This document shows positions 50,545 through 53,889 of a stretch of DNA of 64,000 bases, piece after piece. The translations under genes and the position numbers were made by a program. Positions within the stretch are counted from its first letter, which is position 1; every line of letters starts with the position of its first letter. Source of the stretch: Agilicoccus flavus (GTDB lineage Bacteria; Actinomycetota; Actinomycetes; Actinomycetales; Dermatophilaceae); contig NZ_JACYXE010000008.1 of assembly GCF_014857905.1 (NCBI RefSeq), positions 124,001-188,000 of the forward strand, given 5' to 3'. The notes beneath the pieces are model-generated. The model was not told where the DNA came from. It searched no databases and worked only from the letters and a program-made list of their open reading frames with translations.

Positions 50545-50565
50545 GAGGTTGTCGGTGGGGGCGTC

Positions 50566-50571
50566 TACCGT
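50566..50571 (+). promoter_or_regulatory. -10 element (TACCGT) for uvrB
   Basis: TACCGT ends seven bases before ATG 50579, giving a probably leaderless message. No LexA-box-like palindrome is visible in the gap. Confidence 0.6.
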
Positions 50572-50578
50572 GTCACCC

Positions 50579-52681
50579 ATGCGTCCCGTGACCGATCTGC
50601 AGCGCACCGTCGCCCCGTTCGACGTCGTCTCGGAGTTCTCCCCGAGCGGCGACCAGCCGACCGCGATCGCGGACCTCACACGGCGGTTGCGGGCCGGGGA
50701 GCAGGACGTCGTCCTGCTCGGCGCCACCGGCACGGGCAAGTCGGCCACCACGGCCTGGCTCGTGGAGCAGGTGCAGCGGCCCACGCTCGTGCTGGCCCCC
50801 AACAAGACGCTGGCGGCGCAGCTGGCCAACGAATTCCGGGAGCTGCTGCCGAACAACGCCGTCGAGTACTTCGTCAGCTACTACGACTACTACCAGCCCG
50901 AGGCGTACGTCCCGCAGACGGACACGTACATCGAGAAGGACAGCTCGATCAACGACGAGGTGGAGCGGCTGCGGCACTCCGCCACGAACAGCCTGCTCAC
51001 CCGGCGTGACGTCATCGTCGTCGCCTCGGTCTCGTGCATCTACGGTCTCGGCACGCCGCAGGAGTACGTCGACCGGATGGCGCGGCTCAAGGTCGGGCAG
51101 GAGATCGACCGCGACACGCTGCTGCGCCGGTTCGTGCAGATGCAGTACACCCGCAACGACCTCGCGTTCACGCGGGGCACGTTCCGGGTGCGGGGTGACA
51201 CCGTCGAGATCATCCCCATGTACGAGGAACTCGCCGTGCGGATCGAGTTCTTCGGCGACGAGATCGAGCGCCTGTACACGCTCCACCCGCTCACGGGGGA
51301 GATCGTGCGCGAGGAGCAGGAGATGTACGTGTTTCCCGCGTCGCACTACGTCGCGGGCCCCGAACGCATGGAGCGCGCCATCGGCGGCATCGAGCACGAG
51401 CTCGAGAATCAGCTCCGCACGTTCGAGCAGCAGGGCAAGCTCCTCGAGGCGCAGCGCCTGCGCATGCGCACGACGTACGACATCGAGATGATGCGGACCG
51501 TCGGCGTCTGCAACGGCATCGAGAACTACTCGCTGCACATCGACGGCCGCGAACCCGGGTCGGCCCCCAACTGCCTCCTCGACTACTTCCCCGAGGACTT
51601 CCTCCTCGTCATCGACGAGTCCCACGTCACCGTGCCCCAGATCGGCGCCATGTACGAGGGCGACATGTCGCGCAAGCGCACCCTCGTCGACCACGGCTTT
51701 CGGCTGCCCAGCGCGATGGACAACCGCCCGCTGAAATGGGAGGAGTTCCTCGACCGGATCGGGCAGACGGTGTACCTGTCCGCGACCCCTGGCGACTACG
51801 AGGTCGCCAAGAGCAACGGCGTCGTCGAGCAGATCATCCGGCCCACCGGACTGCTCGACCCCGAGATCGTCCTCAAGCCGACCAAGGGCCAGATCGACGA
51901 CCTGCTCTTCGAGATCGGCGAGCGCACGAAGAAGAACGAACGCGTCCTCGTCACGACGCTGACCAAGAAGATGGCCGAGGACCTCACGGACTACCTCCTC
52001 GACAAGGGGGTGCGGGTCCGTTACCTGCACTCCGAGGTCGACACCCTGCGCCGGGTCGAACTGCTCCGGGAGCTGCGGATGGGGGAGTACGACGTCCTCG
52101 TCGGCATCAACCTGCTGCGCGAGGGCCTCGACCTGCCCGAGGTGTCTCTCGTCTCCATCCTCGACGCCGACAAGGAGGGGTTCCTGCGGTCGGCCCGCAG
52201 CCTCATCCAGACCGTCGGGCGGGCCGCGCGCAACGTCTCCGGCCAGGTGCACATGTACGCCGACTCCATCACGCCGTCGATGGAGTCGGCGATCGACGAG
52301 ACGCGCCGACGCCGTGAGAAGCAGGTGGCCTACAACCTCGAGCGGGGGGTCGACCCGCAGCCGCTGCGCAAGAAGATCGCCGACATCACCGACATGATCA
52401 ACCGGGAGGACGCCGACACCGAGGCGCTGCTCGGCTCGGGCCGCAACCAGTCGCGCGGCAAGAAGGGCGGCCGCAAGGGCGCCGACGCCGACGCCGGCCG
52501 GTCCCGGGCGGTCGACACGACGTCGATGGCCGCCTCGGAGCTGTCCGACCTCATCCAGGAGCTCACCACGCAGATGCACGGCGCCGCGGAGGAGCTGCAG
52601 TTCGAGCTCGCGGCCCGGCTGCGGGACGAGCTCGGCGACCTCAAGAAGGAGCTGCGTCAGATGCAGGAGGCGACACGCTGA
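50579..52681 (+). CDS. uvrB: Excinuclease ABC subunit B
   Basis: The start is ATG 50579, giving 700 residues. It is the helicase-fold damage-verification subunit of nucleotide excision repair. Seen: [18 protein letters not shown], Walker [17 protein letters not shown], the beta-hairpin region [20 protein letters not shown], the DESH box in [12 protein letters not shown], motif [11 protein letters not shown], and a C-terminal UVR motif (about 660-695, [13 protein letters not shown]) for UvrC binding. uvrA lies 2.3 kb downstream. Confidence 0.98.
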
Positions 52682-52758
52682 CCTGCACCGATCGGCGCGC
52701 CGGCCGGTTGTGCGCACACCGGTGGCGGGCGGGGATCGGCACGGGGCGCCGGAACCGG

Positions 52759-52764
52759 TAAGGT
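52759..52764 (+). promoter_or_regulatory. -10 element (TAAGGT) for terC
   Basis: TAAGGT is placed so that transcription starts near 52771, directly before the riboswitch. Confidence 0.5.
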
Positions 52765-52775
52765 GCGAACGTCAA

Positions 52776-52874
52776 CGGAGGGGAGTATCCCTGTCACGAC
52801 CTCCCGTCAGCACGGTCCCGGCGCACCGACGCCCGGCCCGGGAGGTCGGCCCCTCGGGGTGGGAGAGACCTCCG
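52776..52874 (+). ncRNA. yybP-ykoY family Mn2+ riboswitch
   Basis: Both conserved loops are present: GGGGAGTA (52780-52787) and GAGACC (52865-52870). The outer stem pairs CGGA (52776-52779) just before the first with TCCG (52871-52874) just after the second. Between them are a 9-bp stem, gacctcccg (52798-52806) with cgggaggtc (52839-52847), and a short cccc/gggg hairpin. This family senses Mn2+ and controls TerC/Alx-type genes. The GACCTCCGG after the second loop can also pair with the ribosome-binding site GGAAGG (52889-52894) with one bulge, suggesting translational control (inference). Confidence 0.85.
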
Positions 52875-52899
52875 GCCCCCTGCCCTCCGGAAGGCCCCC

Positions 52900-53889
52900 G
52901 TGAACATCCCGCTGTGGTTGTGGATCGCCACCCTCGTCGTGACGGTCTCGTTCCTCCTCGTCGACGTGCTCGTCATCGCGCGTCGGCCCCACGTCCCGAC
53001 GATGGCGGAGTGCGCCCGGCACCTCGCGTTCTTCGTCGGATCCGCCATCGTCTTCGGCATCGCGATCGGCGTCCTGTCCGGCTGGGACTACGGCGCCCAG
53101 TTCTTCGCCGGCTGGATGACGGAGTACTCGCTGTCGGTCGACAACCTCTTCGTCTTCATCATCATCATGGCGAAGTTCGGGGTGCCGGAGAAGTATCAGC
53201 AGGCGGCCCTCATGGTCGGCATCATCATCGCCCTCGTGCTCCGCGGCATCTTCATCGCGGCCGGGGCCGCCCTCATCAACCAGTTCGCGTGGGTGTTCTA
53301 CCTCTTCGGTCTCTTCCTCATCTACACCGCCGTCAAGCTCGCCAAGGAGGGCATGGGCGACGACGACGATGACGACTACGAAGAGAACGCGTTCCTCAAG
53401 TGGGTCACCCGGAAGTTCCCGGCCACGAACTCGTGGGAGCACGGCACGAAGCTCTTCACCCGGGAGAACGGCAAGCGCATCATCACCCCGATGCTCATCG
53501 TCATCCTCGCCCTGGGCACCACCGACCTCATGTTCGCGCTCGACTCGATCCCCGCGATCTACGGCCTCACCCGCGAGCCCTACCTCGTGCTCACCGCGAA
53601 CATCTTCGCCCTCATGGGTCTGCGCCAGCTGTACTTCCTCATCGGCGGTCTGCTCAAGCGCCTCGTGTACCTCAGCCTCGGCCTGTCCGTGCTGCTCGCC
53701 TTCATCGGCGTCAAGCTCATCCTGCACGCCCTGCACGAGAACAACCTGCCGTTCCTCAACGGCGGTCAGCCGATCCACTCCGTCCCGGAGATCCCCATCT
53801 CCGTGTCGCTCGGCGCGATCGTCGTCATCCTCGGCGTGACCACCGTCGCGAGTCTCGCGAAGACCCGCCGGGACGAGCGCGTCTCCTGA
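52900..53889 (+). CDS. TerC/Alx family membrane protein, probable Mn2+ exporter
   Basis: This 329-residue protein starts at GTG 52900 with GGAAGG upstream. It has about nine membrane helices and the family's acidic residues within them (SVDNLFVFIIIMAKF; TDLMFALDSIPAIYG), plus a cytoplasmic linker with six consecutive Asp. The C-terminus continues past the last helix (SVSLGAIVVILGVTTVASLA). Many members export Mn2+ or act in metal homeostasis; tellurite resistance is the historical name. The riboswitch in front supports a manganese role. Confidence 0.92.
   Translation: MNIPLWLWIATLVVTVSFLLVDVLVIARRPHVPTMAECARHLAFFVGSAIVFGIAIGVLSGWDYGAQFFAGWMTEYSLSVDNLFVFIIIMAKFGVPEKYQQAALMVGIIIALVLRGIFIAAGAALINQFAWVFYLFGLFLIYTAVKLAKEGMGDDDDDDYEENAFLKWVTRKFPATNSWEHGTKLFTRENGKRIITPMLIVILALGTTDLMFALDSIPAIYGLTREPYLVLTANIFALMGLRQLYFLIGGLLKRLVYLSLGLSVLLAFIGVKLILHALHENNLPFLNGGQPIHSVPEIPISVSLGAIVVILGVTTVASLAKTRRDERVS

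Follow-up and report, generated by a model that had tools for sequence, protein, structure and literature searches.

Genes and features of the locus

In the window (the whole stretch of 64,000 nucleotides of Agilicoccus flavus DNA that was analysed), the leader under study fills the gap that separates uvrB, which ends at 52681, from a GTG start codon at position 52900; its motifs and stems fall within 52776-52899. The protein encoded by the open reading frame starting at 52900 was matched by PF03741 at 171.9 bits and by TIGR03718 ('R_switched_Alx') at 369.2 bits (curated cut-off 246.4), and shares 33% identity with E. coli Alx (336 aligned positions). The leader is thus followed by a gene of manganese homeostasis, and the TerC gene that a sequence-only reading had placed directly downstream is indeed there. 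TerC proteins are described as participants in Mn detoxification (PMC13274385, in excerpt) and, as argued for B. subtilis, reported to supply exported enzymes with Mn (PMC10550928, in excerpt). The earlier prediction that this TerC exports Mn is kept as likely, with the loading of exported enzymes as a further reported role. The uvrB gene (50549-52681) is directly upstream of the leader; among the 75 TerC loci with more than 1400 nt of upstream sequence, 29 likewise have a same-strand uvrB gene upstream.

Table 1. Features of the TerC leader and its gene. Coordinates of P1.2, P3 and P4 were taken from a fold in which P1.1 and three P1.2 pairs were enforced, and from the sequence.
Feature	Position	Strand	Basis or remark
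Candidate -10 box, TAAGGT	52759..52764	+	Transcript would begin immediately 5' of P1.1
P1.1 switch helix, 5' strand CGGAGG	52776..52781	+	Pairs with 52869-52874 (CCTCCG), 6 Watson-Crick pairs
L1 motif GGGGAGTA	52780..52787	+	Exact match; first two G inside P1.1
P1.2, 5' strand	52788..52791	+	Pairs with 52861-52864, constrained fold
Five-nucleotide junction at the P2 position, no P2 hairpin	52792..52796	+	
P3.1, 5' strand	52797..52806	+	Pairs with 52839-52848, 10 bp, constrained and free folds
L3 element GUCAGCAC	52806..52813	+	Enclosed by P3.1; contains A52809
P3.2 hairpin	52814..52838	+	Constrained fold; helix 4 of the covariation analysis
P4 hairpin, short	52849..52860	+	Constrained fold; helices 5-6 covary over A1
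GAGACC, 3' part of L1 running into the P1.1 3' strand	52865..52870	+	Exact match
CCTCCGG, P1.1 3' strand (52869-52874 and one base)	52869..52875	+	Candidate anti-Shine-Dalgarno sequence
Shine-Dalgarno sequence GGAAGG	52889..52894	+	Sequence; 5 nt before GTG
TerC/Alx family membrane protein	52900..53889	+	329 aa, GTG start, TIGR03718

Architecture of the leader

The sequence-only reading had named two loop motifs, an outer stem joining them and two inner stems. Both motifs were found as exact matches on the + strand (GGGGAGTA and GAGACC), the outer stem corresponds to the six pairs of P1.1, and the inner stems are represented by P1.2, P3.1 and a short P4, as judged from the sequence and the constrained fold. 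A third conserved element, absent from that reading, is L3 (GTCAGCAC at 52806-52813). Its core, CGTCA, aligns with CGUCAUUACG of the E. coli alx leader, and its C, G, C and A are invariant in all 68 leaders of the alignment described below; L3 therefore carries an invariable adenosine, which is also present in E. coli alx. A52809 is a candidate counterpart of the adenosine that contacts Mn2+ in the crystal structures.

The -10 box of Table 1 is given as a candidate only, because a consensus scan returned no sigma-70 promoter at the A. flavus leader. A conserved -10 box was judged unconvincing, TANNNT being present at -16 to -21 from GGGGAGTA in only 14 of the 68 leaders.

Comparative sequence analysis

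For comparison of the leaders, 80 loci with TerC homologues were gathered. Within 350 nt upstream of TerC, GGGGAGTA was present in 69 of the 80 loci, GGGAGTA in 70, and GGGAGTA together with GAGACC in 64. The alignment A1 comprised 68 sequences, namely the window leader and those of 67 of the 80 loci; L006 was left out as an exact duplicate, and L015, L025, L028, L044, L048, L061, L065, L069, L071, L073, L075 and L080 were left out for lack of the motif pair. GGGAGTA is invariant in all 68 aligned leaders, and the first G of GGGGAGTA is conserved in at least 90% of them. The cells of P1.1 are paired in 98.8% of cases over the 68 sequences, those of the three modelled P1.2 pairs in 99.5%, with covariation from U-A to C-G, and seven of the nine pairs of the consensus P3.1 show two-sided changes. 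The stretch from P1.2 to P3 (A1 columns 19-41) consists of 3-6 letters in 67 of the 68 rows and of 22 letters in L040.

Over the 25 modelled pairs of A1, 93.8% of the cells were paired, compared with 82.2% after shuffling, and 192 two-sided compensatory cells were counted, compared with 53.2 in the shuffles. None of 500 shuffles scored as high on any measure, although the relatedness of the sequences inflates permutation and shuffle tests, and pairing dropped to 35-52% when the structure was slid along the alignment. P1.1, P1.2, P3 and P4 are thus supported by covariation. The row of the window itself fails 9 of the 25 modelled pairs (seven in P3.1 and two helix-6 cells in P4) because of misregister; when the window leader was aligned to the covariance model R1, which was built from A1 and hence from TerC leaders only, all modelled pairs were standard.

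Since the structure had been derived from A1 and kinship inflates the shuffle test, a held-out covariance model (R2) was built from a second alignment, A2, of 47 leaders, from which the window and the 16 related loci ranked highest (L001-L016) were excluded. The 47 leaders were taken from the 53 rows of A1 that follow L016; L040, L042, L051, L057, L058 and L062 were omitted by choice. R2 found the window leader at 67.2 bits (E=9.6e-14) and also recovered, at 39 bits (E=5.8e-7), the alx leader of E. coli, a reported member of the family; this bears out the earlier assignment to the yybP-ykoY riboswitches. The excluded loci L001-L014 and L016 were recovered at 60-90 bits; the decayed element of L015 scored 21.2 bits. 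R1 matched the alx leader at 41.2 bits, and the E. coli mntP leader was found by neither R1 nor R2.

Among the loci left out of A1, R2 placed an element directly upstream of TerC in L025, L044 and L073 and, at E<=1, none in L028, L048, L061, L069 and L071. In L065, L075 and L080 the element is situated about 1.2-1.3 kb upstream of TerC, perhaps before an intervening gene. The search of the A. flavus genome with R1 gave one significant site, the TerC leader, the next best having E=0.72. The genome contains a second Alx-family gene (L118, C11:526200-527138, - strand, 371.6 bits); it was found without such a leader, as neither R1 nor R2 matched there.

Single-sequence folding

Considered singly, neither the motifs nor the fold of the leader stand out. 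GGGGAGTA occurs three times in the window (0.63 expected; at least three in 2 of 100 shuffles), and GAGACC occurs 68 times. The single-sequence fold has a z score of -0.79, with 41 of 200 shuffles folding equally well. The free minimum fold of 52774-52910 (-66.2 kcal/mol) is without P1.1, whose 5' strand pairs in this fold with a second copy of CCCUCCG at 52883-52889. Enforcing P1.1 and P1.2 gives a fold of the same segment at -57.5 kcal/mol, in which the Shine-Dalgarno sequence is still partly enclosed in a small hairpin; these energies exclude tertiary contacts and ligand. Single-sequence folding was therefore rejected as evidence in either direction; the residual pairing of the Shine-Dalgarno sequence with P1.1 closed slightly lowered our confidence in the reading that is preferred below.

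Searches with the Rfam model

The sequence-only reading had proposed a search with the yybP-ykoY covariance model of Rfam. Nowhere in the window did RF00080 (Rfam 15) reach its gathering cut-off (45 bits), and a search of 281 nt at E<=10 also came back empty, so that the A. flavus leader stays below the threshold for membership; likewise, no match was obtained in the whole A. flavus genome or in any of 20 related loci (20 of the 80 were searched). Of two E. coli K-12 leaders used as yardsticks (L140 and L141), that of alx was also unmatched at E<=10, and that of mntP scored 44.9 bits, just below the cut-off. Both are reported as Mn-regulated riboswitches of the yybP-ykoY family (PMC9603457, in excerpt). 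The negative result for the A. flavus leader, an outcome that the sequence-only reading had named as refuting, was discounted on these grounds and judged a false negative, of a kind to which the Rfam library is evidently prone. The argument that a leader unmatched by Rfam is no riboswitch was rejected for the same reason, RF00080 missing the alx leader too.

In a sample of the phylum comprising 198 genomes, RF00080 returned one site over its cut-off and six at E<=0.001, and R1 returned 45 at E<=0.001, an advantage that is partly by construction because R1 is tuned to the phylum. Both searches were run with stricter filters. Some of the sites found by RF00080 were weak under R1 (L085, L086 and L083) or unmatched (L084). 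Annotation relying on RF00080 will under-report Mn2+ control in the phylum, and a better family model would name likely Mn2+ exporters.

Other genes preceded by the element

Besides the window, 58 sites of R1 were listed in the 198-genome sample of the phylum, all of which were read. TerC genes follow 33 of them, P-type ATPase genes nine, genes of the GDT1 family, which we take to be the same as UPF0016, eight, and Na/Ca exchanger genes three; the remainder precede two M48 peptidases, one M50 peptidase and one PGPGW membrane protein or lie at a contig end (one site). Families were assigned with Pfam for representatives and by similarity to those for the others. UPF0016, MntP and P-type ATPases are listed as Mn efflux systems in an excerpt of PMC13274385. 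The unusual targets are the M48 peptidases, the M50 peptidase and the PGPGW protein, at L135 (G028:C952), L150 (G013:C271), L106 (G042:C128) and L124 (G139:C1), the M48-peptidase leaders with the element coming from two genomes of one genus. The occurrence of the element before these genes perhaps points to an Mn-linked membrane quality control. The GDT1 leaders (L110, L121, L127, L128, L129, L130, L132 and L133) all carry CGACAYAC in L3 instead of CGTCA (8 of 8), and, to judge from these sequences, the type of L3 may go with the target gene.

Probable expression platform

The sequence-only reading had also proposed that a sequence after the second loop pairs with the ribosome-binding site. 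Such pairing is possible: the P1.1 3' strand CCTCCGG (52869-52875) can form 7 bp with CCGGAAGG (52887-52894) at -9.8 kcal/mol, a weak helix with one bulged base. In the first analysis of the clade, a helix of at least 7 bp was found in 40 of the 68 leaders and in 24% of shuffled linkers, a comparison confounded by the fact that any Shine-Dalgarno sequence pairs with CCUCC. For this reason the linkers were permuted among the 68 leaders. Own linkers paired better with their own P1.1 3' strands than permuted ones (none of 5000 permutations was as good, a figure subject to the same inflation by kinship), and in 57 of the 68 leaders the own linker was superior to the median of the foreign ones. In the A. 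flavus leader the pairing is weak, since 54 of the 67 foreign linkers equal or exceed it, and in the ensemble the unpaired state predominates at five of its six Shine-Dalgarno bases.

No intrinsic terminator was detected in 52660-52960, and none of the 68 linkers (from GAGACC to the start codon) contains a run of five or more T. An intrinsic-terminator mechanism was rejected on both counts. By comparison with the clade, control is probably translational. A translational switch is well supported for the clade as a whole; for the A. flavus leader it is no more than plausible, given its weak own pairing and the partly paired Shine-Dalgarno sequence.

Interpretation and alternatives

The yybP-ykoY Mn2+ riboswitch is the best-supported reading of the leader, on the basis of its motifs (the L1 motif GGGGAGUA at 52780-52787, the 3' strand of L1 and P1.1, GAGACC, at 52865-52870, and L3), the covarying structure, the held-out model, the gene context and the absence of U runs. 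A P2 hairpin and a four-way junction, as described for the crystal structures (PMC6754395), were absent from 67 of the 68 rows; P2 was not taken as defining, because the E. coli alx leader is also without the P2 insertion, and an element of the alx type without P2 would form a three-way junction. We consider it very probable that TerC/Alx is turned on at high intracellular Mn2+ by this leader, acting as a yybP-ykoY (Mn2+) riboswitch of the alx type. Mn2+ as the ligand, the docking of the loops and the direction of regulation are predicted by analogy with characterised members of the family, and the ribosome-binding-site switch from the clade, with its weak form in A. flavus.

In the proposed mechanism, Mn2+ and Mg2+ would dock L1 (GGGGAGUA/GAGA) on L3 (GUCA) across the three-way junction of P1.2, P3 and P4, and thereby stabilise the outer helix P1.1. 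With P1.1 open, its 3' strand CCUCCGG would be free to pair with CCGGAAGG, the Shine-Dalgarno region, and so restrain translation; with P1.1 closed by Mn2+, the ribosome-binding site would be more accessible and TerC would be made. TerC would then remove Mn2+ from the cytoplasm and might also pass Mn2+ to exported enzymes.

That common G-rich motifs in a GC-rich, foldable stretch have produced this picture by chance is extremely improbable. The missing RF00080 match, the ordinary fold energy and the frequency of GAGACC would suit such an origin, but the covariation in A1, the presence of the motifs before 64-69 of 80 homologous genes and the match of the held-out R2 speak against it, the last refuting chance as far as computation can. 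A leader related to yybP-ykoY RNAs could instead be tuned to Ca2+, Cd2+ or pH. Na/Ca exchangers and P-type cation ATPases are among the targets of the RNA, the alx leader of E. coli also answers alkaline pH (PMC9603457, in excerpt) and binding of Ca2+ by the S. pneumoniae mgtA element is reported (PMC9495176, in excerpt); against this, the core letters of L1 and L3 are kept, and an excerpt of PMC13274385 ascribes Mn2+ efflux or detoxification to UPF0016, P-type ATPase and TerC proteins. We regard a signal other than Mn2+ as improbable.

A more serious competitor, if still an unlikely one, is an Mn2+ riboswitch that acts mainly on transcription, through Rho-dependent termination or pausing of RNA polymerase, and not by masking the ribosome-binding site. 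It would accommodate the weak pairing at the A. flavus ribosome-binding site and the fact that this site is partly paired with P1.1 closed; moreover, a 2024 paper on Rho and a riboswitch is cited in the consulted excerpt of PMC13274385, and P1.1 of L. lactis acts with paused RNA polymerase and NusA (PMC11087558, in excerpt). It is opposed by the strong clade-wide pairing between the P1.1 3' strand and its own linker, as well as by the lack of an intrinsic terminator in 52660-52960 and of T5 or longer runs in the 68 linkers.

Comparison with known systems

Neither the family nor its ligand nor its link to terC/alx is new, and one additional Mn2+ riboswitch is ordinary; the importance of the case lies in the alx-type form that the standard library misses. 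The point of lasting value is the frequency of such leaders, lacking P2, before the TerC genes of these actinobacteria, where the current library overlooks them. No paper on the TerC leader of A. flavus relatives was found in the open-licence literature, with Nocardioides included by name, which is a weak negative. We tentatively suggest, as a less likely possibility, that alx-type elements lacking P2 make up a natural subfamily of Mn2+ riboswitches, found from Gammaproteobacteria through to Actinomycetota and for the most part unseen by Rfam 15, whose three-way junction may alter metal affinity or pH dependence relative to the crystallised four-way form and whose wider gene set in the phylum would include M48 and M50 membrane proteases.

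Among characterised RNAs, the E. coli alx leader was compared most closely. It shares with the A. flavus leader the downstream gene family and the elements GGGGAGUA, CGUCAUUACG and GAGACC, lacks the P2 insertion in the R1 alignment and is equally missed by RF00080; it differs in its linker, in its GC content (0.48 versus 0.75) and in a P4 extended to 26 nt, compared with 3 in the model. It is reported to respond to Mn2+ and to alkaline pH (PMC9603457, in excerpt). The 'Manganese' family RF00080 (e.g. E. coli mntP) has in common with the A. flavus leader the L1 motif and an L3 that opens with CGUCA. Its model of 177 positions contains a P2 hairpin, CGUCAACAUACU in L3 and a downstream tail, whereas the A. 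flavus leader has no P2, carries CGUCAGCACG in L3 and gave no reported match. The 3' strand of the X. oryzae construct begins with an identical GAGACC (PMC6754395).

The leader of C. glutamicum cg2157 (terC), compared by its description in an excerpt of PMC3890552, is likewise a yybP-ykoY RNA before an actinobacterial terC gene; according to the same source, which dates from 2013, it scored 49.13 bits with RF00080 in the Rfam data used there and is supported by RNA-seq. The C. glutamicum control genome searched here contains a TIGR03718 match and is not among the named RF00080 matches. The S. pneumoniae mgtA element, as described in the consulted part of a review (PMC9495176), resembles the A. 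flavus leader in combining a yybP-ykoY aptamer with a three-way junction, but stands before another gene in another phylum.
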